A DNA stretch of 64,000 bases, taken from positions 1 through 64,000 of the forward strand of contig CAKMJT010000029.1 of assembly GCA_927407015.1 (NCBI GenBank), read 5' to 3'. Position numbers and translations under genes: made by a program. The DNA is from an uncultured Proteiniphilum sp. Its GTDB lineage: Bacteria > Bacteroidota > Bacteroidia > Bacteroidales > Dysgonomonadaceae. Position 1 is the first letter of the stretch. Every line of letters starts with the position of its first letter. The notes under the pieces were generated by a model, which saw nothing but the letters and a program-made list of their open reading frames with translations, had not been told where the DNA came from and made no database searches. This document shows, piece by piece, positions 37,810 to 64,000 of this stretch.

Positions 37810-37841
37810 ATTGTGCTCGAGCACAATATATAATATGTTTT
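37810..37841 (+). promoter_or_regulatory. Promoter with overlapping LacI-type palindromic operator
   Basis: ATTGTGCTCGAGCACAAT (37810-37827) is a perfect 18-base palindrome with a central CG, and its outer half-sites are identical to those of the ideal lac operator. TTG (37811-37813) inside it serves as the -33 element and TATGTTTT (37834-37841) lies 20 bases downstream as the -7 box (one mismatch). A repressor bound here would cover the promoter of the second glycan block. No LacI-family gene is in the window. Confidence 0.65.
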
Positions 37842-37906
37842 TAAAATTCAATAATATACAACCGAAAATGGTTCATAACAAATAATCTGAAATATTTACA
37901 CCCAGA

Positions 37907-39448
37907 ATGAGTATAAAATATAAAATAGCCATCCTGATTTGCTTATTTGTTGTACAGATGAGTTATTCACAGACTAAAACGTCATCAATTTGGCAATCAA
38001 GCCTTGTTAGAATGGACGAATCGGGAAAACTGACTTATACACCCGATAAAGAGGGAAACATTATACCCGATTTTAGTCGGGTTGGATATCATCACGGAAA
38101 TAAAAGTATCCCCTGTTATCCCGTTGTTAAAATAGTTGAACCCGTGGAGGGAGATAATTGGGAGAACATCCAAAAAGCCATTGATGAAGTCTCTCGGAAT
38201 AAACAAAACATTGACGGGCACAGGGGGACAGTCTTATTGAAAAGAGGTGAATACAGAGTCGCCAGAACTATCCACATTTCATCCGGTGGAATAATTCTTA
38301 AAGGAGAAGGAGATAACGCAAATGAAACGCGGATTATTGCTACGGGCAGGCAGAGATATCCTCTCATTGAAATTAAAGGAAATGGAAGATACCAGGAGGT
38401 AATCAATTCGCGCGTAAAGATTACGGATCAATTTGTTCCTGTTGGATCGCATTCCTTTCATGTTACATCAACCGATCAGTATAAGGTTGGTGATCGCATC
38501 ATCGTATTTCGTCCAGGCACATCTCAATGGATTGAAGCCATCCGGATGAATCGGATCATTGAAAGGCAGGGTACCCGTCAATGGAAAGCAGAAGAATATA
38601 ACCTGGCTTTTGAGAGAGAGATCACCAAGATTGAGGGTAACTGCCTCTTTATTGATAATCCGGTAGTGATGCAGATGGAAGAGCAGTATGGTGGTGGTGA
38701 AGTCTATAAATATACATTTGAAGGGCGCATTCACGAAGTGGGCTTATCCGATATGTATCTTGAATCTGAGTTTGAAAACGACAACGATACGGAGCACGGA
38801 TGGATCGCAGTTCAGTTGGAAAATACCGAGAACTGTTGGGTTAAAAATATGACCACGCAAAATTTCGGATATTCGGCTGTTAGTTGTGAACGTTTTGCGA
38901 AAAATATCACTATTTCCAATGTTCGCTGCTTTGATCCAAAATCTCCGATTACAGGAGGAATGCGTTACTCTTTTAACAATAACGGCCAGCAAAATCTGTT
39001 TATGAATTGCCTGAGTAGAAACGGGAGGCATGATTATGTAACCGGCGCTCGTGTCTGTGGTCCAAATGTGTTTTACAACTGTATTTCAATCAATGCTTTT
39101 TCTGATATTGGGCCACATCACAGGTGGGCAACAGGGACATTGTATGACAATGTTGTTACCGATAGAGAAATTAATATTCAGGACCGGGGGAATATGGGAA
39201 GCGGACATGGTTGGGCAGGCGTAACCCAGGTTTTGTGGAATTGCCGTGCCAATCGGGCAACAGTACAAAAACCATGGACATCGGGCAACAACTATAATAT
39301 CGGAATGAAAGGTAATTACACTCCAGGACATTTTAAAGACCGGGAAGATGGTTTCTGGGAAGGACTGCAAGAAGAAAATATTTTGCCCCGTTCATTGTAT
39401 CAGGCACAATTACGAGCAAGGAGTAAAGAAAAATTAAATTATTATTAA
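37907..39448 (+). CDS. Secreted parallel beta-helix (pectate-lyase-fold) protein, family unknown
   Basis: A 513-residue protein with a signal peptide (1-21). From about residue 80 it shows pectin-lyase-fold features: NWENIQKAIDEVSRNKQNIDGHRGTVLLKRGEYRVARTIHISSGGIILKGEG, then repeated beta-helix turns (VQLENTENCWVKNMTTQNFGYSAVSC, NITISNVRCFDP). Histidine, aspartate and arginine cluster in SRNGRHDYVTGARVCG and FSDIGPHHRWATGTLYDN, a possible catalytic cleft. I cannot place it in a known lyase or hydrolase family. It is the first gene behind the palindromic operator and precedes susC, so an early depolymerase is plausible. Confidence 0.65.
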   Translation: MSIKYKIAILICLFVVQMSYSQTKTSSIWQSSLVRMDESGKLTYTPDKEGNIIPDFSRVGYHHGNKSIPCYPVVKIVEPVEGDNWENIQKAIDEVSRNKQNIDGHRGTVLLKRGEYRVARTIHISSGGIILKGEGDNANETRIIATGRQRYPLIEIKGNGRYQEVINSRVKITDQFVPVGSHSFHVTSTDQYKVGDRIIVFRPGTSQWIEAIRMNRIIERQGTRQWKAEEYNLAFEREITKIEGNCLFIDNPVVMQMEEQYGGGEVYKYTFEGRIHEVGLSDMYLESEFENDNDTEHGWIAVQLENTENCWVKNMTTQNFGYSAVSCERFAKNITISNVRCFDPKSPITGGMRYSFNNNGQQNLFMNCLSRNGRHDYVTGARVCGPNVFYNCISINAFSDIGPHHRWATGTLYDNVVTDREINIQDRGNMGSGHGWAGVTQVLWNCRANRATVQKPWTSGNNYNIGMKGNYTPGHFKDREDGFWEGLQEENILPRSLYQAQLRARSKEKLNYY

Positions 39449-39501: not shown

Positions 39502-42500
39502 ATGAAAAAGGAGAAGTCAAACCCAAAGCCGTTCTTGTTACGGCTTGCTGTTGTGTTGTTCATGACATTTTCGGGTTTCAGTGCTTTCGGGCAAAACGTG
39601 ATTTCCGGAAAAGTGTTGGACAAAACAACCAATGAACCAATGATTGGTGTCACTGTAATCGTTAAAGGGACATCAAAAGGTACTGTTACCGATTTGGATG
39701 GAACTTTTCAGATTTCAGCTTCGATTGGTGACAATTTAGTCGTATCTTACATGGGATATATAGAACAGGAGGTTAGGATAACTTCCGACAGACTGACTAT
39801 AACCATGCAGGAAGATACACAGCAACTGGAGGAAGTTGTTGTGATCGGATACGGGACGATGCAAAAGCGGGATATTACCGGTGCGATCACTTCCGTAGAT
39901 GCTAAAATTATTGAAGAACGAAATGCGGTCAATGTCTACGACGCATTACAGGGAGCAGCACCCGGCGTTTCGATCGTATCCAGTTCCGGTGCTCCGGGGG
40001 CATCTACCTCTATTCAGGTTCGTGGTGCATCAACCTTTGAAGATGGAGGTGTTACGCCGCTTTTTGTGGTAGACGGTACCATTGTGGATGATATCGACAA
40101 CATCAATCCAACCGATATCAAAAGTGTTGAAATCCTGAAAGATGCTGCTTCTGCTTCTATCTACGGGGCACGTTCGGCAAATGGTGTAGTCATTATCACC
40201 ACAAAATCGGGAGAGGCAGGTAAGCCACGTGTTGATTTCCGTTATGTACAGAGTTACAGCAAGATATCCAACAAGCTGCCACAGGTGAATGCATTTGAAA
40301 GCCGCTTAAGTATGGCAGCATCCGATCTGGGTAATCCCGCGAGAACATTGGAGAAATTTACGGATCGAACAGATTCCGTAGGTCTTGTTAACAGTACGAA
40401 CTACTATTATCAGGATCTGCTTTTACAGACCGGTATACGGAATGATGCCAATTTAAACATCAGTGGCGGTACCGATAAGGCTAAATACAGAGCTTCATTG
40501 GGATACATCGGTGTGCAGGGTGTCATTTTAACCTCTTATCAAAAAAAATATACGGGTCAGTTCAATATGGATTATCAGCCGTGGAAAGGAATCACATTTA
40601 CAACCCAGGTGCGGTTGAGCAGCGATGACACCAACAGCATCAACGAGGGAGATGTGATTCAGGGTTCTCTCCGGCGCGATCCCGATATGATTGTCTGGTA
40701 TCCCGACGGGACACTGATCCCTTACTACTCTTCCGGTGGCCGGCGTAATCCGATTCAGGAGCTGGTAGATCGTGAAAGGCTGGATAAAAGGTACCAGATG
40801 GCCATTACACAGGGATTACGGTGGGAGTTCAATGATTGGTTAAGCCTGACGACGAATATAACCGGCGACTTCAGGGTAGATCGTAACACCCGGTTCGATT
40901 CGAAAGAGCGGGATGGTAGTGCCGATGAAAATACCCGCAAAAACAGTGGTGAAGACCGTACGGGATGGACGCAGAAATATGCTGCCGATTCTTATCTGAA
41001 TTTCAATAAAACGTTTTTAAATGCACATGCCGTTGGGGCGACTCTGGGTGCTTCCCTGGAAACACAAAAAAGGGAAAATGCGGATTTTTATGGCAGTTAT
41101 TTTGTGACGGAGAATATTCATACCATGAACATGGCCACAGTCTACGATCTGGGAAGTACGAATACAACGGCCAGCGAATATGCCCTGATCGGTTTCTTTG
41201 GACGACTGAATTACAGTTACAAAGGACGTTACATCCTTCAGGGAACACTGCGCAGAGACGGATCATCCCGTTTCGGACCGGAAAGTCGTTGGGGCTGGTT
41301 CCCATCAGCATCTGCCGGATGGCGTTTCTCGGATGAGCCATTTATGCAATGGGCAAATGATGTGCTGACCGACGGAAAATTCCGGGCAAGTTACGGTATA
41401 ACAGGTAATGACAAAGTGGGTTACTATGAGTCCGTAACTCGTTACACATCCGGAAGTTATTCCTATAACGGTGTTGGAGGTGTGGTACCCGTATCCACTT
41501 ATGGCAATCCGGCACTTCGCTGGGAGGAGACCCGACAATCGAATATCGGAGTAGATTTAAATCTATTCAGGGGGAAAGTGTCCATTGTGGCAGACTACTA
41601 TGTAAAAAACACAAAAGACCTGCTATCCGATTTAAACCTTCCTTTCACAACCGGTTACAATAGAATGCGTGTAAACCTGGCAAGTCTGGAAAACAGGGGT
41701 TGGGAATTCTCAGTGAGTGCATATCCTCTACGTACAAGGGATTTTTCCTGGAATACGATTGCTAACTGGTGGAAGAACGATAACAAGATTACCGATCTGG
41801 CAAAAGATGATTATGTTCAGAGCGGATATTGGATGGTTGCCAAAGGAAAAGCGGCCGGGCAGTGGTTTGGCTATAAAAATCTGGGTGTGTTTGAGTATGA
41901 TGTGAGCAATGCCTATACAGAGGATTTTGCGCAACGTTTAACCCCTGTATTAACCAGAGACGCAGAGGGGAATGTGATTATCGGTTTAAACGGACAACCT
42001 ATTTTGGAAAAGTATCTCAATCTGGACGGATCTGAATATACCGGCGAAGTAAAACAAATCAAACACGCGGGAGCAGTTGCAGCAGGCGGAGATGTTATCT
42101 GGGAGAATCTGCCCAATGCAGAAGGTGAATATGATGAAAAAATTGATGACAGCGACCGGCAGATACTGGGTAAAGCCACGCCCGACTGGTATGCATCCTG
42201 GAATAATATTTTGACATACAAGGATTTTTCGCTCTCTTTTAGTTTTTATTATAGTCATGGAGGGCTTATATACAACAAGTTGAAACAATATGTGACGACA
42301 TGGGGTGGAAATACACACAAGCAACATCCGGAGTATATCAGAACCGGATGGAAATATCAGGGTCAAATCACCGATTGGTATGCATTGGATACGAGGGGTC
42401 GTAAAACGATGAACAGGCAGGAATTAAACAGTCAGTACCTGGAAGACGGCTCTTTCTTAAGATTAAAAAATGTACGATTGGCTTACAATCTGAATAGCAG

Positions 42501-42684
42501 GATATTGGAAAGACTTCCGCTGAACAGGGTACAAACTTATATTTACGGCAATGATCTTTTAACCTGGACCAATTATACCGGATTTGATCCGGAAATTGGA
42601 GGCAGTGTGCTGACTCCAGGTCGGGACAGTTCTGCTTATCCGCGTAAAAGAGAATTTGGCTTTGGAATCAATGTAGGTTTTTAA
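39502..42684 (+). CDS. SusC-like TonB-dependent glycan transporter (pair 1)
   Basis: A 1060-residue outer-membrane importer. After the signal peptide (about 1-30) come a carboxypeptidase-regulatory-like domain (ISGKVLDKTTNEPMIGVTVIVKGTSKGTVTDLDG), the box EEVVVIGYGTMQKRDITGAI, a plug domain (VNVYDALQGAAPGVSIVSSSGAPGAS, SASIYGARSANGVVIITTK) and a beta-barrel ending in FGFGINVGF. It forms a pair with the SusD-like lipoprotein 20 bases downstream. The substrate is set by the locus, not visible in the protein. Confidence 0.96.
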   Translation: MKKEKSNPKPFLLRLAVVLFMTFSGFSAFGQNVISGKVLDKTTNEPMIGVTVIVKGTSKGTVTDLDGTFQISASIGDNLVVSYMGYIEQEVRITSDRLTITMQEDTQQLEEVVVIGYGTMQKRDITGAITSVDAKIIEERNAVNVYDALQGAAPGVSIVSSSGAPGASTSIQVRGASTFEDGGVTPLFVVDGTIVDDIDNINPTDIKSVEILKDAASASIYGARSANGVVIITTKSGEAGKPRVDFRYVQSYSKISNKLPQVNAFESRLSMAASDLGNPARTLEKFTDRTDSVGLVNSTNYYYQDLLLQTGIRNDANLNISGGTDKAKYRASLGYIGVQGVILTSYQKKYTGQFNMDYQPWKGITFTTQVRLSSDDTNSINEGDVIQGSLRRDPDMIVWYPDGTLIPYYSSGGRRNPIQELVDRERLDKRYQMAITQGLRWEFNDWLSLTTNITGDFRVDRNTRFDSKERDGSADENTRKNSGEDRTGWTQKYAADSYLNFNKTFLNAHAVGATLGASLETQKRENADFYGSYFVTENIHTMNMATVYDLGSTNTTASEYALIGFFGRLNYSYKGRYILQGTLRRDGSSRFGPESRWGWFPSASAGWRFSDEPFMQWANDVLTDGKFRASYGITGNDKVGYYESVTRYTSGSYSYNGVGGVVPVSTYGNPALRWEETRQSNIGVDLNLFRGKVSIVADYYVKNTKDLLSDLNLPFTTGYNRMRVNLASLENRGWEFSVSAYPLRTRDFSWNTIANWWKNDNKITDLAKDDYVQSGYWMVAKGKAAGQWFGYKNLGVFEYDVSNAYTEDFAQRLTPVLTRDAEGNVIIGLNGQPILEKYLNLDGSEYTGEVKQIKHAGAVAAGGDVIWENLPNAEGEYDEKIDDSDRQILGKATPDWYASWNNILTYKDFSLSFSFYYSHGGLIYNKLKQYVTTWGGNTHKQHPEYIRTGWKYQGQITDWYALDTRGRKTMNRQELNSQYLEDGSFLRLKNVRLAYNLNSRILERLPLNRVQTYIYGNDLLTWTNYTGFDPEIGGSVLTPGRDSSAYPRKREFGFGINVGF

Positions 42685-42704
42685 TATGTATAATAATTGA
42701 TAAA

Positions 42705-44243
42705 ATGAAGAAAAATATTATCGCTATCATTTGCAGCATATTTATCTTAGCCGGCTGTGACGATTTTCTGGACAGACAACCGTTATCCGACATGTCACCC
42801 GGCACCTTTTTTCAAACGAAAGGTGATATGCGAACCTGGAATGCAGGTATTTACGATGCACTTCAATCGACACTCCACCAAAGACATCTCGATTGGGGAG
42901 ATCTTCGCTCAGATAATTATCACACAACAGGATATGAAAGTGCGAAAGTTTATATGAACGCCATGGAATCGACCATGGGCGAAACAAGCTGGCAAGACCT
43001 GTATACAACGATCAATCTATGCAATATTGCCATAAAACGCTATCCTACTATTCCTCAGGTGCTTGAATCAGAAACCAATCCTTATATGGGACAAGCCTAT
43101 GGCATCAGGGCATTGATGTATTTTTATGGAATCAGGGTATGGGGCAGAGTTCCGCTCATCACAGAACCCTGGGAAGGTGATCTGACCCAAATTGCGGTAC
43201 CCAGGAATTCAATTGAAGAAGTAAAAGCACAAATCCTGGAAGATATTGATCTTTCGTTGGCTGCCCTTGGCAATGATGTCTCTGATAAATTCTATTTTAA
43301 CAGAGCGGCTGCTTATGCACTGAAAACAGATGTACACATGTGGTTTAAGGAATATGATGAAGCATTGGCAGCTTCTGCGTATTTTGTTGGAAACTCCAAT
43401 TTTTCATTGGTAAATAATTCAGATGAATGGAAAGAAATGTTTACAAAACCTGCTTCTTCCAAAGAATCTATTTTCAATCTTGCATGGAGTTTCGATGCTG
43501 ATGGGAGTCACGGTTGGGCACAGCGCGTGGGTGCAAACAACACCAACAACGGATATAAAATGTCTCAACCGATATATGAAGAATTCATTGACAGACTTCG
43601 GTCCGGTCATGGTGCAGACGGGCGGTTCTGGAATAATGTAGATACGGTGAAATTATTTTATAACGGCCAGCGTCTACCGTTGACCTATGCAAACTGGACA
43701 ACCTCTGGTATTGAAAAATGTACCAAATACAGTATCGTTGATCCCGATAGAAGTTTTGATGCCAATAATGGCGTTTATAGATCCTTCTGGGCTGTTCTGT
43801 CTTCAGAAAACGCAGAGATTCAAATCCCCATTTATCGTCTGGCAGATGTGCTTTTGCTGCGTGCAGAAGCATTGAGCAAGAAAGGCAATCCGACCGAAGC
43901 ATTAAACATTGTCAATCAAATGCGAAACAGGGTTGGTTATACGGCAGATGCGAAATTGGAAGTAAATATGGCTGACCAAACGGCTGTTGAAATGCTTATC
44001 CTTCAAGAAAGACAATTAGAATTTATTGCCGAAGGGAAACGTTGGTTCGATCTGGTACGGACAGATCATTTGCTTGAGGTGATGGATCCTGTAATCAGAG
44101 CAAGACAAGAAGCGGCCGGAGTTCAGGTGACCGGTTTTACACAGGCAGAAGAAGGGAAAAAATATATGCCCATATATTACCGCGAATTTGAATCAAATAC
44201 AGCATTAAAAGGCGATCAAAATCCCCCCTATTCCGAAGGATAG
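42705..44243 (+). CDS. SusD-like glycan-binding lipoprotein (pair 1)
   Basis: The 512-residue surface lid of the first SusC. A lipoprotein signal ends at C18 (ILAGCDDFLDRQPLSDMSPGTFF), followed by helical TPR-like repeats and the family C-terminal stretch MLILQERQLEFIAEGKRWFDLVRT. Spacing to susC and to the next lipoprotein gene (23 bases) indicates one operon. Confidence 0.95.
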   Translation: MKKNIIAIICSIFILAGCDDFLDRQPLSDMSPGTFFQTKGDMRTWNAGIYDALQSTLHQRHLDWGDLRSDNYHTTGYESAKVYMNAMESTMGETSWQDLYTTINLCNIAIKRYPTIPQVLESETNPYMGQAYGIRALMYFYGIRVWGRVPLITEPWEGDLTQIAVPRNSIEEVKAQILEDIDLSLAALGNDVSDKFYFNRAAAYALKTDVHMWFKEYDEALAASAYFVGNSNFSLVNNSDEWKEMFTKPASSKESIFNLAWSFDADGSHGWAQRVGANNTNNGYKMSQPIYEEFIDRLRSGHGADGRFWNNVDTVKLFYNGQRLPLTYANWTTSGIEKCTKYSIVDPDRSFDANNGVYRSFWAVLSSENAEIQIPIYRLADVLLLRAEALSKKGNPTEALNIVNQMRNRVGYTADAKLEVNMADQTAVEMLILQERQLEFIAEGKRWFDLVRTDHLLEVMDPVIRARQEAAGVQVTGFTQAEEGKKYMPIYYREFESNTALKGDQNPPYSEG

Positions 44244-44266: not shown

Positions 44267-44944
44267 ATGTTGAAGATAATAAATTTAAAAATAGTATTGA
44301 TGGTATTACTTGTACCATTTATGATGGAGAGTTGCGAGATCTTTGGACTGGAGCTCCAACAACCGTACGAATATGATTATAAAATTGGGGTTCCCGATAA
44401 TCATGTCAATTTAAAAACATTGGACTTTATCAAGTCCAGACCTGATCTATTCAGTCTTCTACTGGAGGCTATTGAATATGCTGATGCGGCAAATCTTTAT
44501 GCAGAACCAAATGCAACCTTTATTCTCCCCACGAACAGAGCTTTTAATTCTGAAACAGAATCGGATTTAAGTTATTTTCAGACACATAAATTGCTCTTTA
44601 TTGAAAATGGAGATTCCCTGTTAGTAGCTCCAAGTTCCATGAATTCTTATCCCAAAGAGCAGGTAAAGGAATTTTTGCTTTACCATATTGTCAGGGGAAA
44701 GTATACATGGAGTAATCTGCCTGCAGCTCCAACCTGGTTCGATACGTTTGCATCTGCAGATACAGCGAAAGTAAATCTATATTTAATTAAAGATCGAAAT
44801 CCAAATATTGCTTTCAATGATTTTAGCGGACATTACAAATCCAATATCAGACCCCGCACCTCTAATCTTTTATCAGATGAAGGTGCATACATTCATGTTG
44901 TTGAATCCTGGCTAGACAGGCCTACTTCGGATTTATTCAGATAA
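44267..44944 (+). CDS. FAS1 (fasciclin)-domain lipoprotein
   Basis: A 225-residue lipoprotein (Cys 23 in MMESCEIF) with one fasciclin-like domain: RPDLFSLLLEAIEYADAANLYAEPNATFILPTNRAF, VKEFLLYHIVRGKYTW and RTSNLLSDEGAYIHVVESWLD. FAS1 modules act in adhesion and ligand binding. Lying between susD and a putative glycan-binding lipoprotein, it is probably part of the surface complex. Its role there is not known. Confidence 0.75.
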   Translation: MLKIINLKIVLMVLLVPFMMESCEIFGLELQQPYEYDYKIGVPDNHVNLKTLDFIKSRPDLFSLLLEAIEYADAANLYAEPNATFILPTNRAFNSETESDLSYFQTHKLLFIENGDSLLVAPSSMNSYPKEQVKEFLLYHIVRGKYTWSNLPAAPTWFDTFASADTAKVNLYLIKDRNPNIAFNDFSGHYKSNIRPRTSNLLSDEGAYIHVVESWLDRPTSDLFR

Positions 44945-44963: not shown

Positions 44964-46058
44964 ATGAAAGGGAAATATAAATTAATAATCGGATTATTCT
45001 TTTTTACCTGGCTGATCAGTTGCTCCGATGAAAGTTTCATTGAAATCGACTCCCTGAGTTCGGATGGAAATGAATTCTATTGCAACCAGAAAGTAAAAAT
45101 ATGGATGAACGTTCGCTCAAGCGATCTTTGGCATACTGATTATGAGTGGAGTGCCGACGGTGGTACCCTCACACAGCCACAGGGATTGGATGAGATGACC
45201 TGGAAGGCGCCAAATGTTCCGGGTACCTATACCATACGTTGTAAAGTAACCGTAGGAGATAAAACAGACATCAGGGAAAAAAAGATGTTCGTTTCCAGTT
45301 ATTTTTTCGAGAAGTTTGAGAAATCACCCTATGCCTTTTCGGGACAATCGAGTACAACTCTGTCTCTGAGAACTGAAACTGTAAACGGACAGACTAACGG
45401 GTGGCTGCGGGCCAATGTGAACTCTTCAAGTGAGGTTAATCGCTATCTGAATCGCTCTTTTGGAGATCCTGAACTTGCCACACCCATTTCCATTCGGGCC
45501 AAAATAGGATTTGAATCAAACGCTCCTACGCTAGCAACAATTAAAGTGGGTAACAAAACCGGGAATACGATGTTGGAATATCAACTGAATTGTTTGAAGG
45601 ATCCATCATCGGAAACGGGCTTTGTGAGCAGAATCTCATTCATGTGGTATCCTACGAATGTATCCCCCGGATTTCCAGTCGTTCCGGAAGGCAGCATTTC
45701 GCCTGATGGCTCTGCAACTTACAATTCGAGAGTTACAATTCAAACGAGAAATGTGCTGGGTCTGACCACTACATACGATTACTATTACACGATCAGTAAA
45801 ATGTCAACCTTCACCAATAAAAATTACAAAAAGGTGGGAATGGCTATTGATGAGAATTATCAGCTCCACGTCTTTCTGGAAGGAGAGGAGGTTCTGACAA
45901 CACCGGTTATCAGTGAGCTTCGTACATTAAATCAGATACAAGGAGGTGTTTTCATTGACAACTGGCGGGTCGTTTTCCCGAATGGAAACGGAGGTGCCAA
46001 CAGGCCAATGCTCTATTTTGATGATGCCTACGCATCAACCACAGAGTTATTAAAATAG
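44964..46058 (+). CDS. Putative surface glycan-binding lipoprotein
   Basis: A 364-residue lipoprotein (C20 in WLISCSDES). Residues about 30-115 look like an Ig/PKD-type module (YEWSADGGTLTQPQGLDEMTWKAPNVPGTYTIRCKVTVGD); the remainder is beta-rich, possibly a concanavalin-like sandwich (FEKFEKSPYAFSGQ...GVFIDNWRVVFPNG...LYFDDAYAST). No catalytic motif is evident. Its position after susC/susD is where SusE/SusF-like binding proteins occur. Function by position only. Confidence 0.6.
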   Translation: MKGKYKLIIGLFFFTWLISCSDESFIEIDSLSSDGNEFYCNQKVKIWMNVRSSDLWHTDYEWSADGGTLTQPQGLDEMTWKAPNVPGTYTIRCKVTVGDKTDIREKKMFVSSYFFEKFEKSPYAFSGQSSTTLSLRTETVNGQTNGWLRANVNSSSEVNRYLNRSFGDPELATPISIRAKIGFESNAPTLATIKVGNKTGNTMLEYQLNCLKDPSSETGFVSRISFMWYPTNVSPGFPVVPEGSISPDGSATYNSRVTIQTRNVLGLTTTYDYYYTISKMSTFTNKNYKKVGMAIDENYQLHVFLEGEEVLTTPVISELRTLNQIQGGVFIDNWRVVFPNGNGGANRPMLYFDDAYASTTELLK

Positions 46059-46199: not shown

Positions 46200-46877
46200 A
46201 TGAAAACACAGGTATTATTCATAGGATTGCTGCTCTGTTCTTCAATCCTTACAGCACAGGATACAATAAAAGGTGTCATTATTTCCGACAAGGGAAAACC
46301 TGTACGTCGAATGAATGTATGGGTAAAAAATTCGCTGGACGGAGTTAAAACGGACAAACAAGGTGAATTTATATTACAGGATCTGAGTGAAAAAGATACA
46401 CTGATCATCTCTGTTTCAAAAAAACAGGATGCCGTGATACCACTGAAAGATAGGGGAGATGAGTTAATAATTAAGTTGAAAAAGAACGAATTTATTTTGC
46501 AAGACAATTCGCAGGAATTCACATACCCTTATTCAAACAAAACATTGTTGGCATTCAATCCGAATATTCTTACCCGCCGCCAAATTGAACAGAGTGGTGC
46601 AAACTCCCTGTATGATTTGTTGAGAGGGAATCTCCCGGGAGTGACGGTCTCCGAGGTCAATGGCAATACCCTCGTAACCATTCGTGGAGGAAGTTCTTTT
46701 GATCTGAACAATGAACCGCTTTTTATTATAGACGGGATCGAATACAGAGGAAGTTATGATGCCGATCGTGCTGTGAATATACATGATATTGAACAATTAG
46801 AGGTGCAGAGCGATGGAGCGATGTACGGAATTAAAGGATCAAATGGGGCAATTGTAATTACAACCAAAAAAAAGTAG
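46200..46877 (+). CDS. Plug-only SusC-like protein without beta-barrel
   Basis: The 225-residue protein has a signal peptide (1-20), a carboxypeptidase-regulatory-like domain (IKGVIISDKGKPVRRMNVWVKNSLDGVKTDKQGEF) and a TonB-receptor plug (LYDLLRGNLPGVTVSEVNGNTLVTIRGGSSFDLNNEPLFIIDGIEY, MYGIKGSNGAIVITTKKK), then stops exactly where the barrel would begin. No barrel remnant follows; the next gene starts 31 bases later. Stand-alone plug proteins occur in Bacteroidetes but are poorly understood. It might cap or modulate a SusC, or interact with TonB. Confidence 0.75.
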   Translation: MKTQVLFIGLLLCSSILTAQDTIKGVIISDKGKPVRRMNVWVKNSLDGVKTDKQGEFILQDLSEKDTLIISVSKKQDAVIPLKDRGDELIIKLKKNEFILQDNSQEFTYPYSNKTLLAFNPNILTRRQIEQSGANSLYDLLRGNLPGVTVSEVNGNTLVTIRGGSSFDLNNEPLFIIDGIEYRGSYDADRAVNIHDIEQLEVQSDGAMYGIKGSNGAIVITTKKK

Positions 46878-54895: not shown

Positions 54896-57394
54896 ATGAA
54901 ACATCCCGTATTTTTTATTTTAATATTCCTTTTCGCCATAATACCGATTAAAATTATTGGACAAGAAGGTTTAACGCCACAAATTGATTTCAAACAATAT
55001 GCGTCTTCTGCCGATTTGAAATATGAGACTCCGGCGTCAACCAGTGAGGAAGGACTTCCCATTGGCAACGGAGTGATGGGAACATTACAATGGACCACCC
55101 CTACTTCAATCCGGTATCAACTGAACAGAGTCGACGTTTTTGGAAATAACGCAGAAAGTAATAATTTCTATGAACGACATACGGATTATTGCGGTGGTGT
55201 AGGGTTTATTGACATTGATTTCCCGAATTATAACGATCTGTTCGCCGGCGATGAGTTTTTGCAGCATTTGTCATGTTATACAGCCACTGTGGCGACCAAA
55301 GGGAAGCATGTAAATACCGAAACTTTTGTGTGGAGCGATGAGGATGTGATGGTGATGAATGTGGCATATGATGAATCCTCTCCCATTGTCGTTCATTTAA
55401 GGTCTTTACGACCCTTAATCACGAAAACGGGAGACCATTCTGCCATCTCATCACTGAAGCAAGGAACAGACAACACAATCGTACTCCTGCAGACATTCAA
55501 AGAAAAAGACTATGTTTGCAAGTCTGCTGTTGTGGTGAAGATAGTAGGTGTTCCGTCTAAATCGAGATTCGCAAATGAAACGGATATTACTTTAACGGCA
55601 ATCCCGGAAAATGGAAACGCTTTTCAGGTATATGTGGCAAGTGCGGCATCATTCAACGAAGATGCGGATGTTGAGGGGGAGGCAATACAAAAGCTTCAAA
55701 GAGCAATTGGATTGGGATATGATACTGTTTTATCGCATCATCAGCAATGGTGGAAATCATTCTGGGAAAAATCGTTCGTTAAATTGCACAGCAATGATGG
55801 CGTAGCCGATAAAATAATGGAGAATTACACCTATTTCCAATACGTGATGGGATCATCCTCTCGGGGTACATATGCACCAAAATTTAACGGCATGCTCTGG
55901 ACTACCGGAGGCGATTCGCGGAAATGGGGAAATCTGTTTTGGGGAGCCAACCAGAGTTGTTATTACAACGGATTATTTCCAACAAACCGGCTGGAATTGA
56001 TGAAGCCGTTCTTTGACATGTATTCCCAAATGATGCCATCTCTCGAGCGTGCCGCCGTACAACAATGGGACAGTAAAGGAATCTTCATTCCTGAAACCGT
56101 AGGTTTCGACGGCCTGCCGGAGCTACCAGATGAAATTGCAAAGGAGATGCGGGATTTGTATTTGCTGAGAAAGTCTTGGGATGAGCGATCAGATTCCTTC
56201 AACGAATATGCAAAAACAAAAATGCCGTTCAACAGCCGCTGGAACTGGAAACAGGATGAAGGCTGGAAGGATGGCACCTGGCATTTCTCAGATAAGGGAG
56301 GCGGCCCTTTCGGGCATGTCACACATATTTTCTCCCGGGGAGCTAAAATTGCCTATCAATATTGGATGTATTATGAATATACCCAAGACAAAGCATGGCT
56401 TAGAGAACGAGCATATCCGATGTTAAAGGGGGTAGCAGAGTTTTACCGGAACTTTCCCCATCTGAAAAAGGAGCGTGACGGAAAATATCATATCCGGCAT
56501 GTAAACGACAATGAGTCGGTATGGGACGGACACAATACGGTGGAAGAGATTTCGTCCATGATGGGAATTTTACCGGTAACGATCCGTGCAGCGGAAATTT
56601 TGGACATTGATGCTGATTTACGTGAACTATGGGAAGAGATCTTGGTAAATCTGTCACCTTTGCCTATCAGTGATTCATATCCTGAATTAATGGAACGTCC
56701 CGTTACATTTGTGCGATCACTCCAACCGGTATTAAAAGGGCCTGCTTCACGCGTTCCGGATCCTAATACCATGCCTGTATGGTTTTTCGATTTATACACG
56801 TTAGAATCCACAGACCAGAAAATGATGCAAATAGCAAACAACACGTTTGATGCCTATTTCCCTTCCGGGATTACCAGGAATTCTCCTGTATATGTCTTAT
56901 CCAAGCTTCCGGTAGCAGGAACACAACTCGGACGTGCAGATGCAACAAGATATCTGATTTCCAATCAGGTTGAATCTCAGGAAACGGTGATTCTGAGAAA
57001 CCGGATGGACTTACGCGAAGGCTTTCAAACTACAGGTGTGCAACGCCTGGGTCGCGCAGCCGATGCGCTTCATAATGCATTGTGTCAAAGCATTCCGGCC
57101 TCACCCGGAAAAGATCCGGTGATTCATCTATTTCCTGCCTGGCCAGAAGAATGGGAGGCTGATTTTAGTTTATTGACTCGGGGTAACTTCATGGTAACGT
57201 CAAGCATGCATAACGGGAAAATCGAGTTCGTGGAAATTAAATCGAACTCTGGCATGCAATGTAATTTACACAATCCCTGGGAAAAAGGAAAAGTATCTAT
57301 TTATAAAAATAACAGGAAAGTTTTAGAGACAACCGACAGGCTTATCTCAATTTCTACAGAACCCGAGGACCATTTATTTATTTACAATAAATAA
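54896..57394 (+). CDS. Secreted DUF5703/GH95-like glycoside hydrolase homologue
   Basis: The ORF opens at 54839, but ATG 54896 gives a proper signal peptide (MKHPVFFILIFLFAIIPIKIIGQ) and is used here (832 residues). The N-terminal beta-sandwich contains SEEGLPIGNGVMGTLQWTTPTSIRYQLNRVDVFGNN, which parallels the LPIGNGRLGAM start of GH95 alpha-fucosidases/galactosidases and matches my memory of DUF5703. An (alpha/alpha)6-barrel follows (WGNLFWGANQSCYYNGLFPTN..., RPVTFVRSLQPVLKGPASRVPDPN). GH95-type activity would fit a fucose- or galactose-containing glycan but is not proven. Confidence 0.65.
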   Translation: MKHPVFFILIFLFAIIPIKIIGQEGLTPQIDFKQYASSADLKYETPASTSEEGLPIGNGVMGTLQWTTPTSIRYQLNRVDVFGNNAESNNFYERHTDYCGGVGFIDIDFPNYNDLFAGDEFLQHLSCYTATVATKGKHVNTETFVWSDEDVMVMNVAYDESSPIVVHLRSLRPLITKTGDHSAISSLKQGTDNTIVLLQTFKEKDYVCKSAVVVKIVGVPSKSRFANETDITLTAIPENGNAFQVYVASAASFNEDADVEGEAIQKLQRAIGLGYDTVLSHHQQWWKSFWEKSFVKLHSNDGVADKIMENYTYFQYVMGSSSRGTYAPKFNGMLWTTGGDSRKWGNLFWGANQSCYYNGLFPTNRLELMKPFFDMYSQMMPSLERAAVQQWDSKGIFIPETVGFDGLPELPDEIAKEMRDLYLLRKSWDERSDSFNEYAKTKMPFNSRWNWKQDEGWKDGTWHFSDKGGGPFGHVTHIFSRGAKIAYQYWMYYEYTQDKAWLRERAYPMLKGVAEFYRNFPHLKKERDGKYHIRHVNDNESVWDGHNTVEEISSMMGILPVTIRAAEILDIDADLRELWEEILVNLSPLPISDSYPELMERPVTFVRSLQPVLKGPASRVPDPNTMPVWFFDLYTLESTDQKMMQIANNTFDAYFPSGITRNSPVYVLSKLPVAGTQLGRADATRYLISNQVESQETVILRNRMDLREGFQTTGVQRLGRAADALHNALCQSIPASPGKDPVIHLFPAWPEEWEADFSLLTRGNFMVTSSMHNGKIEFVEIKSNSGMQCNLHNPWEKGKVSIYKNNRKVLETTDRLISISTEPEDHLFIYNK

Positions 57395-57434: not shown

Positions 57435-58562
57435 ATGAAAAAAATAATTCTATTATTACTCATAATATATCCATACAGTATTTATTCTCAGAATATTAAT
57501 CTGAATAAATGGAAGGATAACGATGATCCGAAAAAAATCGGACTGCTTGTTTCGAATCGTTTTGTGGAGAGTCCGCATAATAGTTTCCGCCCTCCCACCC
57601 CGACAAAATCAATCACATACCCCGAAGTGTGTGCCTGGTACGGTGCATTGCGATTTGCAAAAGTCACCGAAAACAGTTTGCTGTCAAATCAGCTCAATGA
57701 CCGGTTTAAGCATTTGATAAATAATGAAAAGCACTTAATACCGAAGCCGGCACATGTAGATAATACGGTTTTTGGCGCAGTTCCTTTCGAACTTTTTTTA
57801 CAAACCGGAGAAAAAAAGTATTTAGATCTTGCCCTTCAGATTGCAGATGCACAATGGGAAATGCCGGAGAATGTATCTCCAGAGAAAGCTGCATCTTATA
57901 AGGCACTGCTGGATAACAACCTGACATGGCAGACACGCTATTGGATTGACGATATGTTTATGATTACCATGGTGCAGACGCAGGCCTACAGGGCAACGGG
58001 GGATAAGAAATATATCGACAGAACTGCTTATGAGATGTATGTGTATCTCGATACCCTGCAGCAGGCTAACGGCTTGTTTTATCATTCTCCCGATGCTCCT
58101 TACTTCTGGGGACGCGGAAATGGATGGATGGCAGCCGGAATGGCTGAACTTCTCATTTCATTGCCTGAAGATAATAAATACAGAACACCTATCATGGCAT
58201 CTTATCTGAGAATGATGGAGAGTTTAAAAAAATATCAAAAACAATCAGGCCTTTGGGGACAGCTTATCGATGACAAAGAAGCGTGGGACGAAACTTCCTG
58301 CTCGGCCATGTTTACCTATGCAATGATTGTGGGCGTAAAACGGGGATGGCTGGATAAAAAGACATATGTACCGGTAATTGAGAAAGCCTGGCCTGCACTG
58401 GTAAAACATATTAATCCTGATGGAGACATTGATGAAGTTTGCGAGGGAACAAATCGTAAAAATGATCGTCAATATTACCTCGACAGAAAAAGAAAGACAG
58501 GCGATATGCACGGTCAGGCACCCATTTTATGGTGTGCAGCAGCTCTCTTGGAAGATTTGTAA
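57435..58562 (+). CDS. GH105 unsaturated glycuronyl hydrolase
   Basis: A 375-residue enzyme with a signal peptide (1-19) and the GH105 (alpha/alpha)6 motifs WIDDMFMITMVQTQAYRATGD (Asp 172/173), PYFWGRGNGWMAAGMAELL, DETSCSAMFTYAM and DMHGQAPILWCAAALLED. Family members remove the 4,5-unsaturated uronate left at the non-reducing end by polysaccharide lyases, by hydration. It starts 40 bases after the DUF5703/GH95-like gene. Confidence 0.9.
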   Translation: MKKIILLLLIIYPYSIYSQNINLNKWKDNDDPKKIGLLVSNRFVESPHNSFRPPTPTKSITYPEVCAWYGALRFAKVTENSLLSNQLNDRFKHLINNEKHLIPKPAHVDNTVFGAVPFELFLQTGEKKYLDLALQIADAQWEMPENVSPEKAASYKALLDNNLTWQTRYWIDDMFMITMVQTQAYRATGDKKYIDRTAYEMYVYLDTLQQANGLFYHSPDAPYFWGRGNGWMAAGMAELLISLPEDNKYRTPIMASYLRMMESLKKYQKQSGLWGQLIDDKEAWDETSCSAMFTYAMIVGVKRGWLDKKTYVPVIEKAWPALVKHINPDGDIDEVCEGTNRKNDRQYYLDRKRKTGDMHGQAPILWCAAALLEDL

Positions 58563-58579
58563 ACAAAAGGATGATTAAA

Positions 58580-60733
58580 ATGAAAAGTAAGAAAATCACA
58601 CTTAGTATTTTCTTTTTACTGTTGGTTCTGCCATTTAAGGTAAAGTCACAGCAATATGAAAGCATCAAAGAATATCTGTCTCCTGCTGTAAAAAACGGGG
58701 GTTTTTCCATGAATGATTACATTCTATGGTGTCCCACAGTGATAAAAGTAGATGGTACCTATCACATGTTTGCTTCCCGTTGGCCCGTAAAATACGGACT
58801 TGGGGGTTGGACCAAATATTCGGAATGTGTCAGGGCGACTTCCGAAAATTTATACGGCCCTTATGAATTTCAGGAAGTCGTTTTACAAAAGAGACCGGAT
58901 GCTTGGGATAATTCCCGCGTACACAACGTGAAAATTGTAAAAACAAAAGATAAGTTTGTGCTCTACTATATCAACTCGGCCAATCAGATCGGTTATGCAG
59001 AAGCTGATAAAATAACAGGCCCGTGGACGAGGGTAGATGAACCGATTCTCCACTTTAGCAACCCTGCTCCTCTTGTGAGAGAAGATGGAAGTATCTATAT
59101 TTTTGGCCGCTTGCGCGATACTGAGGACAAAAACAGAGGTGTGGCCGCCGTTGCTCCCTCTTATAAAGATCCGTATGCGCTGATCGAAGAGGGGAAAAAT
59201 CTCCTGCCCAATGACTATGAATTGGAAGACCCAACAATCTGGTGGGCAAACAATCAATACAACATCATCTGTAACGATTGGAAAGCGAAAGCCACGGGGG
59301 TAACAAAAGGTGGGGCTCAATATTACTCAAAAGATGGCGTAACCTACCATCTGGTATCGCAAAAACCAATCTTTAACCGAAATGAACCGGTAGTTTATGA
59401 TGACGGATCGGCGGAGAAATTTGCAAGAATTGAACGTCCCTTTGTCTTTACAAACGAAAAAAATGAGGTAATTGCCCTTTTCACAGCCAATCTTTACTCC
59501 GATTCATTGGGAGGAAGAGCCAAAATTGTGGTTCATCCAGTAAATAATTACTATCCTAAAGAGGTAGCTGCCAAAGCACGGCGTGGCACATCACAGGGAT
59601 TGCCCGATGCACGCCTGCCATATACACCCGGCAAACCCGTAAAGTATTGGTCATTAGCCACGGCGGCCAGTATAATGTCACGTTACCCCGATTATCGTGA
59701 AGCGTACTGGAAACCCTGGTCGTATGTGCAGGGATATATGTTCTATGGTTTTGAAATGTTGTATCGTCTCACCGGAGATACACAATACATGGATTTTATA
59801 AAAAAATATGTCGACCATTTCGTGGATGAGCAGGGGAATTTTCATGGGGATAAACTGACTAATCTGGATAACTTAATGACGGGTAACAGCATTGTAGGTT
59901 TGTATGAGTACACAAAAGACATTCGTTACAAAACCGCTGCAGATCAGTTTCGAAAAGTATTCGATACCTATCCCCGAAGTGCGGATGGTCAGTTCTGGCA
60001 TGGGGATAAATCTCCCAATATGTGGATCGACGGAGTTTTCATGGGACAAATGTTTTTAATCAGATATGGAAAATCAATCGGCGATACATACTATTGTTTT
60101 GATGAAGCTGCCCGGCAGGTTTTGGTTTGTGCAAAGCATTTAAGAAAAGGAAATTCCGGATTGTATCTGCATGCCTGGACCGAAAAACCGGAGTTGGTGA
60201 AATGGGCTGACCCGAAAACCGGACTTTCGCCCGAAGTATGGAGTGAAGGAATGGGCTGGTTTGCTTTGATGGTAGCTGAATTGCTTGCTGAAATGCCCCA
60301 AACGCATCCGAAATACAATGAGATTCAAAAATTATATGTGGAGATGGCTTCGGATCTAAAAAAATACCAGGATAAAAAAACAGGCGGCTGGTATATGATT
60401 GTAGACAAAGGCAATCATCCTGACAACTGGATTGACCCGTCGGGTACCGGAATGTTTTTGTATGCCTTACAAAAAGGGATTGAATTAAATCTTATATCTC
60501 AAAAAGAATTCAATCCTGTTGTGAAAAAAGCGTACAAATGTTTGATCTCGTTTGCCAAAATCAACGAAAGAGGATTGGTAGATATTGAAGGCGGGGGCGA
60601 TGGAATTTCAGTAAAACCGGATTATGAAACCTATGTGCATTATCAAAAAATGACAAATGCAAAAGAAACGGTAGGTGCTTTCCTCTGGGGCACAACGATC
60701 ATGGAGAAACCCCGAAAGTTAATATTAGAATAA
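58580..60733 (+). CDS. Beta-propeller glycosidase-like domain fused to GH105
   Basis: A 717-residue secreted fusion. ATG 58580 has AAGG nine bases upstream and a signal peptide (1-24); the ORF-track start lies inside the previous gene. Residues about 30-335 look like a five-bladed propeller of GH43/GH117-type enzymes (ILWCPTVIKVDGTYHMFASRWP, ELEDPTIWWANNQYNIICNDW, RIERPFVFTNEKNEVIALFTANL). Residues about 355-717 are a GH105-like (alpha/alpha)6 domain (NMWIDGVFMGQMFLIRYGK with D484; EVWSEGMGWFALMVAELLAEMP; DPSGTGMFLYALQKG). The two activities would act on successive bonds of a lyase product. Confidence 0.78.
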   Translation: MKSKKITLSIFFLLLVLPFKVKSQQYESIKEYLSPAVKNGGFSMNDYILWCPTVIKVDGTYHMFASRWPVKYGLGGWTKYSECVRATSENLYGPYEFQEVVLQKRPDAWDNSRVHNVKIVKTKDKFVLYYINSANQIGYAEADKITGPWTRVDEPILHFSNPAPLVREDGSIYIFGRLRDTEDKNRGVAAVAPSYKDPYALIEEGKNLLPNDYELEDPTIWWANNQYNIICNDWKAKATGVTKGGAQYYSKDGVTYHLVSQKPIFNRNEPVVYDDGSAEKFARIERPFVFTNEKNEVIALFTANLYSDSLGGRAKIVVHPVNNYYPKEVAAKARRGTSQGLPDARLPYTPGKPVKYWSLATAASIMSRYPDYREAYWKPWSYVQGYMFYGFEMLYRLTGDTQYMDFIKKYVDHFVDEQGNFHGDKLTNLDNLMTGNSIVGLYEYTKDIRYKTAADQFRKVFDTYPRSADGQFWHGDKSPNMWIDGVFMGQMFLIRYGKSIGDTYYCFDEAARQVLVCAKHLRKGNSGLYLHAWTEKPELVKWADPKTGLSPEVWSEGMGWFALMVAELLAEMPQTHPKYNEIQKLYVEMASDLKKYQDKKTGGWYMIVDKGNHPDNWIDPSGTGMFLYALQKGIELNLISQKEFNPVVKKAYKCLISFAKINERGLVDIEGGGDGISVKPDYETYVHYQKMTNAKETVGAFLWGTTIMEKPRKLILE

Positions 60734-60746: not shown

Positions 60747-63632
60747 ATGAGAACTTTTCCTTATTTACTACAAATACTTATCTTTATTGCAATAAATGCA
60801 GAGGCAAGGCTGGCGGATAATTCCGGTAACGCATCCGACTCTTCATTTTTGCCTAAGTCGCACATATATAAAGAGACACCCGATTCACTAATTTTCATTT
60901 CTGGCTTAACCCAAGTCTTTACCGTGGATACACCCGAAGACGAGGGGTTAACAGCCACGACTCTTAGAGTAGAAGATCTGTTAAAAGCAGCCGAAAAAGA
61001 GGCCGGATTTCGTTACAAGGTTTTTAGCTCTGTTGGCCATGAAAAGAAAGAAGGCATTTTTGAATCGGGAGACTATATCGAAAAAACTAATCATAAAACA
61101 GGTAAAAAACAGGTAAAAAAAGTAGGAATAAAACGTGCTGCCATTAGAGGAACGCTCCTGTTGGATAAGACCCGGATGACGGTCGGCAGCAAGAACGACA
61201 TTATTCTCACTTTCTATGCAGGCCAACGTTCTCCGATGACGGATGTGGTTATCACCATTCCCAACGGAATACGCATAACCCCGGATAATACCTTCATCAA
61301 TGTGATAGGTCGCGGTGAAGTGCTCCTTAAGGACCTGGCCAAACAATCGATAGGCCGTACAGGAACGAATTATTCCTATCGCCGGGTGGGAAGTGTGGAA
61401 ATTAAAGAGAATGAATGCAACGGGCAGCAGCTTATAATTTCAAATCTCGACTTCAGGCCTGCAAACGGAGCTGATTTAATCATTCGGATTCAACATCCCG
61501 GTATCAACAAAACGGGACAATACTTGTTTTCGTCGCGTTATAAAACTTCTGAGCCTGAAAGTTTCACGAGCCCGGGTGGAGGAATAGAAAATGTAGTTTT
61601 AACAGTTGTCAATGAGATTAGCGACTTTGTCAGAATCATGCCGCAACCCAGGAAATATGAAAGATCGGAACTTACAACGGCCGGTTTTTCGTGGACCCCT
61701 GCAAAAGATGCCTCCATGGTCAGATTGTTACAATCCACAGACAAAGGGAATACGTGGCAAAACGCCAACGTGATCATTGCTCCGGGAAGTGATAAGGCAA
61801 CAATTCGTAACCTGACACCCAATCAGCTTTATGCATTTAAGTTAGAAGTCGATGATGGTCTTAACCAGGGAATTTCCAACATTGCCTGGCTTTATTCGGG
61901 CATGCTGGATGTGAAAACGATGGGCGTAACGGGGGACGGGAAAACCGATGACACGGAAAAAATCAACGAAGCATTGGACTTCATCAATAAGATTGGGGGT
62001 GGCATCGTGCTGTTTTCCGAAGGACAATACAACGTACGGACCGTGTACCTGCAAAGCAACGTTTGGCTCTACATCGACAGAAAAGCTGCCATTCAGGCCA
62101 TAGAAGGAAGTGACGAGCCGGAAGCAACCTGGTTCAGTGATCTTGCTTATCGTTCGGGATTATCGCCCACCGATCCGAAACCCTATCAGGATCCCGAAAA
62201 TTATCTGACAAAACAGGATGTGGGGCATACATTCTTTCGCAACGCGATGTTCTTTGCCGAAAGAGCGGATAACATCAAAATTATAGGAAACGGGTATATC
62301 ACTGGAAATGGAGTTTTGGCTACTTCCGATCGCGTAATGAACAATGTTCCCGGAAAAAGAGCAGATAAGATGTTTTCTTTAAAATTGTGCTCCAATATCG
62401 AGATTGGCGGATTGGATAACGGAAAGGACTTATGGTACGACCCCGATAAAGATCTCCCCTATTATATTGATGGAACTGAGTATGACGATAGTAACATGCT
62501 GCAAATAGACAGAGGGGGGCATTTTATTCTCCTGGCTACGGGAACCGATAACGTATATGTACATAATACCTGCTTTGCAAAAAGGAACAGCTTAAACGCG
62601 CGTGACATTTACGACTTTATGGCTTGTAATAACGTTATAGTTACCAATATTTACTCAAAAGTCAGTTCCGATGATATTGTAAAATTGGGATCAGATTGTG
62701 CATTGGGATTCACACGACCGGTAAAAAATTATAGGATACGAAATATCATTGGAGATACGAACTGTAACTTATTTCAAATAGGTTCCGAAACAGCTGACGA
62801 CATTCAGGATGTGTATGTAGACAATATCTATGTACTGGGATCGAATAAAGCAGGCTTTTCAATCTCTACAAACGATGGAGGCCATATAAAAAACATACAC
62901 CTGAACAGTGGACGGACAGGAACTCTTCATTCACGCTCGGTCATGAAACGTACAAGAGCACCTTTCTTTATTTCCATTTCAAACAGGGCGCGCGTTATCG
63001 GAGCAGATGTAGCAAAATTTTCATTTAATGAGAATGGAGCAACAAGAAGTGAATTACTGGTAACAAACGTGAGTATTGGAAAAGTTGAGAACGTCACGAT
63101 CAACAAAGTCGATATTTCGGAGGTATACGGAGGAAGTTCTTTCCGTGGGGACAGGTGGAAAGCGTATGACGGTTCTCAAAATAAAGCAACGGCGATAATT
63201 GCGGGCTACAAGTTACCCGATGAAGCGGACGTGGAAGGTGGACTTAACTTCAAGTTGCCAAACGGGCAACACAACGGCTATATTGAAAATATCAGCTTTA
63301 GCGACGTGAACCTGACAGTAAAGGGAGGGCACGCTGCTGCCGACGCCGGATTGATCCCCCCGGAATTGGGTGTGGGACGTTACAACGTGTCTGATTTCCA
63401 GATACAACCCTCCTACGGTTTTTGGATACGCCATGTAAAAAATCTTACCTTGAAAAATTGTAACATAAAAACAGAAAAAGCCGATGGCCGCTACGCAGTG
63501 GTTTTAGATGACGTACACAATGCCAAAATAACCCGATTGAAGGTGACAAACGAAGGAGTTGCCGATGAGGCGATAAAAATTATTCGTTCTTCCGGAATAA
63601 AAATTATTAACTGTTCATATAAAGTGTTATGA
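60747..63632 (+). CDS. Large GH28-like beta-helix glycosidase with N-terminal extension
   Basis: A 961-residue secreted protein. After a signal peptide come about 280 residues of unknown, partly helical and beta structure, an FN3-like module (about 300-385; FSWTPAKDASMVRLLQSTDKGNTW) and a right-handed beta-helix (386-961) starting DVKTMGVTGDGKTDDTEKINEALDFINKIGGGIVLFSEGQY, a GH28/pectin-lyase start. Catalytic-region equivalents are LNARDIYDF and VSSDDIVKLGSD (D642, D643). The usual GHG histidine is replaced by DTNCNLFQIGSET, so the family fit is loose. It follows the GH105 fusion by 13 bases and overlaps the next start (ATGA). Confidence 0.7.
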   Translation: MRTFPYLLQILIFIAINAEARLADNSGNASDSSFLPKSHIYKETPDSLIFISGLTQVFTVDTPEDEGLTATTLRVEDLLKAAEKEAGFRYKVFSSVGHEKKEGIFESGDYIEKTNHKTGKKQVKKVGIKRAAIRGTLLLDKTRMTVGSKNDIILTFYAGQRSPMTDVVITIPNGIRITPDNTFINVIGRGEVLLKDLAKQSIGRTGTNYSYRRVGSVEIKENECNGQQLIISNLDFRPANGADLIIRIQHPGINKTGQYLFSSRYKTSEPESFTSPGGGIENVVLTVVNEISDFVRIMPQPRKYERSELTTAGFSWTPAKDASMVRLLQSTDKGNTWQNANVIIAPGSDKATIRNLTPNQLYAFKLEVDDGLNQGISNIAWLYSGMLDVKTMGVTGDGKTDDTEKINEALDFINKIGGGIVLFSEGQYNVRTVYLQSNVWLYIDRKAAIQAIEGSDEPEATWFSDLAYRSGLSPTDPKPYQDPENYLTKQDVGHTFFRNAMFFAERADNIKIIGNGYITGNGVLATSDRVMNNVPGKRADKMFSLKLCSNIEIGGLDNGKDLWYDPDKDLPYYIDGTEYDDSNMLQIDRGGHFILLATGTDNVYVHNTCFAKRNSLNARDIYDFMACNNVIVTNIYSKVSSDDIVKLGSDCALGFTRPVKNYRIRNIIGDTNCNLFQIGSETADDIQDVYVDNIYVLGSNKAGFSISTNDGGHIKNIHLNSGRTGTLHSRSVMKRTRAPFFISISNRARVIGADVAKFSFNENGATRSELLVTNVSIGKVENVTINKVDISEVYGGSSFRGDRWKAYDGSQNKATAIIAGYKLPDEADVEGGLNFKLPNGQHNGYIENISFSDVNLTVKGGHAAADAGLIPPELGVGRYNVSDFQIQPSYGFWIRHVKNLTLKNCNIKTEKADGRYAVVLDDVHNAKITRLKVTNEGVADEAIKIIRSSGIKIINCSYKVL

Positions 63633-64000
63633 TACAAAGAGATTTGATTTTTATTGGGTTATTATTGGTTCTCCCTTTACAACTTGTACAGGCGAAAATA
63701 TATCCTGTTGCAAACCTGCAAGAATTTAACAAAACAGTTTCCCGACTCACACCCGGGGATGAGATTGTCCTAAAAAACGGTGTGTGGAACAATGTGGAAC
63801 TTCAGTTTTCTGGCAAAGGATCTCCTGAGGCCCCAATTACATTAAGGGCAGAGACTCCCGGAAAAGTAAGCATCGAAGGTAGATCAAACCTGAAACTGAG
63901 CGGAGAATATCTGCATGTATCGGGATTGATTTTCAGAAATGGTTATACCCCCTCAGGCAGTGTGATTGAATTTAGGAACAAGAACGAAGTTGCAAATAAC
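63629..64000 (+). CDS. PL6-family polysaccharide lyase (alginate lyase/chondroitinase B type), 5' part
   Basis: Absent from the ORF track because it runs off the right edge. ATG 63629 overlaps the stop of the GH28-like gene (ATGA) and 124 codons are visible. A signal peptide (about 1-22) is followed by YPVANLQEFNKTVSRLTPGDEIVLKNGVWNNVELQFSGKGSPEAPITLRAETPGKVSIEG and LKLSGEYLHVSGLIFRNGYTPSGSVIEFR, the N-terminal cap and first helix turns of PL6. Family members cleave alginate or dermatan sulfate by beta-elimination with calcium. The catalytic Lys/Arg region lies outside the window. Confidence 0.85.
   Translation, partial: MIQRDLIFIGLLLVLPLQLVQAKIYPVANLQEFNKTVSRLTPGDEIVLKNGVWNNVELQFSGKGSPEAPITLRAETPGKVSIEGRSNLKLSGEYLHVSGLIFRNGYTPSGSVIEFRNKNEVANN

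Follow-up and report, generated by a model that had tools for sequence, protein, structure and literature searches.

A 26-gene polysaccharide locus with two importers, predicted to target an acidic galactose- and fucose-containing polymer, in an uncultured Proteiniphilum sp.

In the draft genome of an uncultured Proteiniphilum sp. (3.18 Mb), a Bacteroidales bacterium of gut or digester type, a run of 26 genes on the plus strand (contig positions 37907-85092, approximately 47 kb) probably constitutes one PUL dedicated to an acidic heteropolysaccharide; judged from the sequence, the probability of this reading is about 0.6. The window, i.e., the 64,000-nucleotide stretch that was analyzed, corresponds to the start of a 261-kb contig and covers the first half of the locus, with its end cutting the run, which goes on to position 85092. 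The target polymer would contain 4-linked uronate, α-D-galacturonate, α-D-galactose, partly linked to L-fucose, and terminal L-fucose and/or L-galactose.

The features of the window are compiled in Table 1. Twelve further genes, including that of the PL6 lyase, lie wholly or mostly past the window end; 3′ of the locus, a glycerophosphodiester phosphodiesterase is encoded, followed by housekeeping genes. Intergenic gaps range from -4 to 141 bp throughout the run. Its G+C content of 43.3%, versus 49.5% and 49.7% in the two flanks, is in keeping with an acquired block. As in Sus-like PULs, the locus contains adjacent SusC/SusD pairs, namely two, among 40 SusD-like matches across the draft genome, and co-directional carbohydrate-active enzymes. 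The one-strand arrangement with such short gaps, together with a near-identical order in sister genomes (79-95% identity), argues for more than a chance assembly. All components that the sequence-only reading had listed on one strand, i.e., the beta-helix protein, both SusC/SusD pairs, a lipoprotein, GH97, the DUF5703/GH95-like protein, GH105, the propeller-GH105 fusion, the GH28-like protein, and PL6, were found again on the plus strand between 37907 and 64000; missing from that list are the fasciclin protein (44267), the PKD/jelly-roll-like lipoprotein (44964), and the plug-only SusC fragment (46200). Among the ORFs of 37907-85092, no HTCS, ECF/anti-sigma, or SusR regulator was detected, a GntR regulator being located upstream only; local sensors or regulators are common in Sus-like PULs, but not obligatory. 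In a promoter and terminator scan of positions 37700-50000, promoter-like sites stayed below chance level.

Table 1. Features of the locus and of the adjoining fucose genes (window positions; PL6 continues on the contig).
Feature	Position	Strand	Basis
GntR-type regulator, FucR-like	33338..34324	+	reading frame; adjoins fucose genes; name by resemblance
L-fucose isomerase FucI	34615..36384	+	sequence
L-fucose permease FucP	36388..37713	+	sequence; upstream of locus in sister genomes as well
Beta-helix protein, putative lyase or hydrolase	37907..39448	+	conserved family
SusC-like TonB-dependent importer 1	39502..42684	+	Pfam Plug, CarbopepD_reg_2, TonB_dep_Rec
SusD-like lipoprotein 1	42705..44243	+	PF07980, PF14322
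Fasciclin-domain protein	44267..44944	+	PF02469; beside SusD1 in relatives also
Lipoprotein, putative surface glycan-binding protein	44964..46058	+	position after SusD1; lipobox
Plug-only SusC-like protein (CarbopepD_reg_2 + Plug, no barrel)	46200..46877	+	Pfam/TIGR04056
333-aa lipoprotein, PL7-like motifs (RNE, HIH, KFGIY), putative lyase	46909..47910	+	motif resemblance
GH97, retaining α-galactosidase type	48016..49875	+	PF10566
SusC-like TonB-dependent importer 2	49935..53099	+	family match
SusD-like lipoprotein 2	53176..54774	+	family match
DUF5703_N + GH95-like glycosidase	54896..57394	+	PF18961, PF22124, PF21307
GH105/GH88 unsaturated uronyl hydrolase	57435..58562	+	PF07470
N-terminal domain (propeller-like by eye) fused to GH105/GH88	58571..60733	+	PF07470 at residues 364-712
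GH28-like beta-helix enzyme, 961 aa, locus family marker	60747..63632	+	80 relatives; SSDD...GSE motif
PL6 lyase, chondroitinase-B-type	63629..64000, on to contig 64975	+	PF14592, 379 bits
Past the window, in order: PL6, GH28, PL38-like lyase, GH31, GH36, unkAA, GH29, GH95, GH29, Gfo/Idh/MocA oxidoreductase, GH88, GH2	up to 85092	+	

Near copies of the locus are present in the sister genomes Proteiniphilum sp., Bacteroidetes GWC2_46_850, and Porphyromonadaceae bin.24, all three with near-identical gene order and identities of mostly 79-95%. At approximately 50-75% identity, the enzyme core is also found in Bacteroides, Prevotella, Muribaculaceae, Dysgonomonas, and soil Sphingobacteriales, and in Dysgonomonas alginatilytica both importer pairs reside in one locus with the core (SusC1 63%, SusC2 75%). 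Carriers of the relatives kept for the 961-aa GH28-like query include Bacteroidota of human gut, rumen, and soil, with few marine names among them. In the vicinity of this marker, GH28 was found in at least 34 of the 80 cases, GH31 in at least 19, the beta-helix protein in at least 15, GH36 and GH29 in at least 12 each, PL38 in at least 11, and unkAA in at least 10, all of which are lower bounds, counted at an identity of at least 45% in flanks of at most 10 kb. Outside the sister genomes, the GH28 orthologues share 66-74% identity, while paralogues of the same genomes reach at most 41%. In many soil Bacteroidota (Chitinophaga, Niastella, Pedobacter; L027-L093), the GH28-like gene occurs with no other part of the core in the 10 kb around it. 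In many related loci (L018:12739-16611 and L014:12905-14371; one cluster in 18 loci), DUF362 proteins adjoin the GH28-like gene; they are absent from the window.

Both importer pairs are distinct, as had been proposed from the sequence, with SusC1 and SusC2 sharing 29% and SusD1 and SusD2 25% identity. The lipoprotein encoded at 44964 has no significant Pfam match. That the plug-only gene is a broken SusC was considered and rejected, since its stand-alone orthologues in Bacteroides (L138) and Prevotella (L139) stop at the same point; there, an MG2-domain protein is encoded next.

Concerning the glycoside hydrolases, the best PDB matches of the GH97 protein are GH97 α-galactosidases, with 3A24 at the top, and NF053844 is matched below cut-off. 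The protein contains an Asp in the K-x-D-F motif (KIDF), which is the nucleophile of retaining GH97 α-galactosidases. The GH31 enzyme encoded past the window is approximately 68% like PsGal31A of Pseudopedobacter saltans (1140 bits), which in sequence terms is an orthologue-level match; PsGal31A is an α-galactosidase that was crystallized with fucose in the +1 site, and the equivalents of W486, Y274, E366, R418, and Y432 named in that study are kept, if a one-residue numbering offset is allowed (PMC9491548). In the GH95 enzyme, likewise past the window, a Thr precedes the Asn pair by two residues; this position is occupied by Thr370 in the L-galactosidase BACOVA_03438 and by His in the fucosidase AfcA, a polymorphism that alone is no proof (PMC4491172). 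The 961-aa GH28-like protein has its DD kept, while equivalents of the usual GH28 His and Arg-x-Lys (RIK) were not seen by eye; its SSDD...GSE motif recurs in 73 loci. No Pfam match was obtained for the N-terminal domain of the fused GH105/GH88 protein; in the sister genome L015, the two halves of this protein are encoded individually, on either side of a GH29 gene. None of the 26 genes was recognizable as encoding a rhamnosidase, arabinofuranosidase, xylosidase, or mannosidase. Given this absence and the presence of GH31, GH97, PL6, GH95, and the fucose genes, the reading with the best support is an acidic polymer built from uronate, galactose, and either fucose or L-galactose.

Three proteins of the locus are, as far as sequence comparison goes, conserved but without match to a catalytic family. 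The beta-helix protein (14 members in the alignment) belongs to no Pfam or NCBIfam family, and its sequence profile gave at most weak beta-helix matches to solved structures; its AlphaFold model (pLDDT 84.9) resembles phage capsule depolymerases, GH110, and GH28 at a TM of approximately 0.4 or less, which supports the predicted fold, not an activity. The RNE, HIH, and KFGIY stretches of the 333-aa lipoprotein, which we take to be reminiscent of PL7, are mostly conserved in four homologues; the protein yielded no meaningful Pfam match, lyase profiles remained unmatched up to E 10, and its structure model (pLDDT 41.7) is too poor for a fold search. The third, unkAA, a 674-aa protein encoded past the window, has no Pfam match, and its profile found nothing among solved structures. 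As to the remaining lyases, the PL38-like enzyme past the window matches the Alginate_lyase profile with 298 bits, contains an NNHG motif, and is closest to the solved structure 3NFV (202 bits), the label PL38 having been assigned in this analysis and the Pfam profile being common to PL5/PL39 as well. The PL6 gene overlaps the preceding GH28-like gene by 4 bp. In agreement with membership of that family, its product keeps the VKS and LRHG motifs of the catalytic Lys/Arg stretch; the closest solved structures are alginate lyases, chondroitinase B being only distantly related, and the PL6_1 subfamily is not predictive of specificity (PMC4954714). PL6 is not part of the core, as B. clarus has none in the vicinity of its marker gene. 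Specificity cannot be read from orthology here, since PL6 and GH28 are polyspecific families.

Upstream, the predicted fucose catabolic genes, unlike the sulfatases, stay with the locus. In the sister genomes, the GntR-type regulator is linked to the locus, a FucI orthologue of 90-91% identity lies upstream of it, and in L015 and L017 the order GntR-FucI-(FucU)-FucP runs straight into the beta-helix gene. The FucU-like (fucose mutarotase) gene between FucI and FucP in L015 and L017 is missing here (36384-36388). In the window, the fucose genes adjoin a separate block (23898-33038) in which three Ser-type sulfatases are accompanied by GH30, M23-like, and esterase-like genes. A probably sulfated substrate had been deduced, an element that is not supported: in both L015 and L017, the counterpart of the gene at window positions 21057-22505 directly precedes GntR, FucI, FucP, and the gene of the beta-helix protein, sulfatases being absent, and in the genome of L015 the three sulfatases are grouped on a different contig. 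Linkage of sulfatases to the locus, as expected of a locus for a sulfated glycan, was found in neither of these genomes. Homologues of sulfatase 1 occur in 59 of 101 family genomes, many of them without the locus, the beta-helix gene (at least 60% identity) in 8. On these grounds, the block is regarded as a neighbor, not as a proven part of the locus.

Gene content and order, family membership, conservation, and the kept GH31 residues are established here; for the degradation pathway, we infer localization, linkages, order of cleavage, and regulation, as well as the service of both importers to one glycan. SusD1 and SusD2, the putative binding protein, the PL7-like lipoprotein, and the PL38-like lyase would bind and cut the polymer at the cell surface, and SusC1 and SusC2 would each import different oligosaccharides derived from this one glycan. 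Unsaturated uronates would be exposed in the periplasm by PL6/PL38, possibly together with the beta-helix protein, and removed by the three GH88/GH105 enzymes. The remainder would be stripped by the α-galactosidase-type enzymes GH31, GH36, and GH97, the two GH29 enzymes, GH95, the GH95-like protein, two GH28 enzymes, and GH2. Freed fucose would be taken up via FucP and isomerized by FucI under control of the FucR-like GntR regulator. Of the sequence-only reading, the single locus, the uronate, the α-galactose, and the fucose, for which L-galactose may stand instead, are supported.

Other substrates would account for parts of this gene set. A pectin-type locus, with GH28 and GH105 acting on the plant galacturonan of rhamnogalacturonan I, xylogalacturonan, or mucilage and the glycosidases on its side chains, would suit the carriers from human gut, rumen, and soil, and both GH28 proteins are closest to the rhamnogalacturonidase BT4146, at 280 and 180 bits, i.e., below the cut-off of 500. 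It is rendered unlikely by the lack of a recognizable GH78/GH106, arabinofuranosidase, β-xylosidase, or PL1/9/11 in the 26 genes, although the 674-aa protein could hide one, and PL6 and PL38 are not pectin lyase families. The predicted sugar list also fits common enterobacterial capsules; the Klebsiella K63 capsule, for instance, contains Gal, GalA, and Fuc. A target of bacterial origin, namely a capsule or exopolysaccharide made up of galactose, galacturonate/glucuronate, and fucose, would further agree with carriers from soil, gut, and rumen and with phage capsule depolymerases and lyases as nearest folds of the beta-helix protein; fold matches at a TM of approximately 0.4, however, are expected for any beta-helix, and with no direct link to any capsule this proposal appears improbable. 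Very unlikely is a locus for brown-algal cell walls, i.e., alginate plus a fucan that the sulfatase neighbors would mark as sulfated. The PL6 enzyme is closest to alginate lyases, with Pedsa3628 of P. saltans cleaving poly-MG alginate (PMC4954714), PL38 alginate lyases exist (PMC11381880), and D. alginatilytica carries the locus; yet the sulfatases are unlinked in sister genomes, PL6 stands outside the core, GH28 and three α-galactosidase-type enzymes are unexpected for alginate or fucan, and few carriers have marine names.

A different objection concerns the unity of the locus. Two independent loci for two glycans could adjoin here, one comprising importer 1 and the lipoproteins, the other importer 2 with GH97, the GH95-like protein, and GH105. 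Within the stretches examined, L017 has importer 1 only and L090 importer 2 only, and in the 101 family genomes SusD2 is found in 4 and the beta-helix gene, at an identity of at least 60%, in 8; the modules being separable, the importers could serve two glycans. Each half, however, still accompanies the GH28-like marker, both are united with the core in D. alginatilytica, and the spacing shows no break between them, which makes two separate loci a rather doubtful explanation.

A characterized system with this gene set was not found in the literature searched, most subscription journals and PULDB being outside the search, which agrees with the earlier statement that no characterized locus has exactly this set. 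The suggestion that the locus is possibly undescribed needs qualification: the core is widespread, and from its P. saltans counterpart two enzymes, PsGal31A and Pedsa3628, have been assayed, each on its own rather than within the system (PMC9491548, PMC4954714). In that counterpart (Pedsa_3617-3628), a SusC2/SusD2-like pair (48/44%), GH31 (68%), the GH28-like marker (54%), GH28 (66%), GH29, and PL6 form one cluster, and the locus tag of Pedsa3628 fits a PL6 gene therein; unlike in the present locus, no close relative of SusC1 is encoded nearby, nor are GH36, GH97, PL38, or an orthologue of the beta-helix protein. The core of Bacteroides cellulosilyticus DSM 14838 comprises GH28 (72%), GH31 (74%), GH36 (68%), unkAA (72%), PL38 (67%), the beta-helix protein (68%), and SusC1 (60%), as well as GH88 and GH2, with SusD1, the fasciclin protein, and the plug protein accompanying SusC1 further along. 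There and in its relatives, however, these genes are scattered across more than 60 kb and interrupted by unrelated ones; long sensor-regulator genes that are HTCS-like by length and sequence, additional DUF362 and GH97 genes, and a different second importer are further differences. The most expressed CAZyme of B. cellulosilyticus on a plant-rich diet is reported to be a GH36, BWH2_1228, which may or may not be the core GH36 (McNulty et al., PMC3747994). PUL-XylL of B. ovatus, for complex xylan, likewise combines two SusD-like proteins with GH31, GH95, and GH97 (PMC4491172), but has GH30 and GH98 xylanases where the present locus has uronate lyases, GH28, and GH105. The alginate PUL of B. ovatus CP926 (PL6, PL17, PL38) shares PL6 and PL38 in one locus (PMC11381880), whereas PL17 is absent here and α-galactosidases, fucosidases, and GH28 are present.

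Loci of this kind determine which bacteria eat which fibre. Tentatively, the present one may be the best-equipped example here of a widespread locus type for an acidic polysaccharide with α-galactosyl-fucose, in which the beta-helix, PL7-like, and 674-aa proteins might found new families of lyases or hydrolases and the plug protein might represent a novel accessory of the importer. Beyond these three conserved families, none of which matches a catalytic family, the locus yields a narrow prediction, namely an acidic polymer with α-Gal on L-Fuc. With Bacteroides of the human gut, Prevotella of the rumen, and bacteria from soil as carriers of the core, the substrate is probably a common one.
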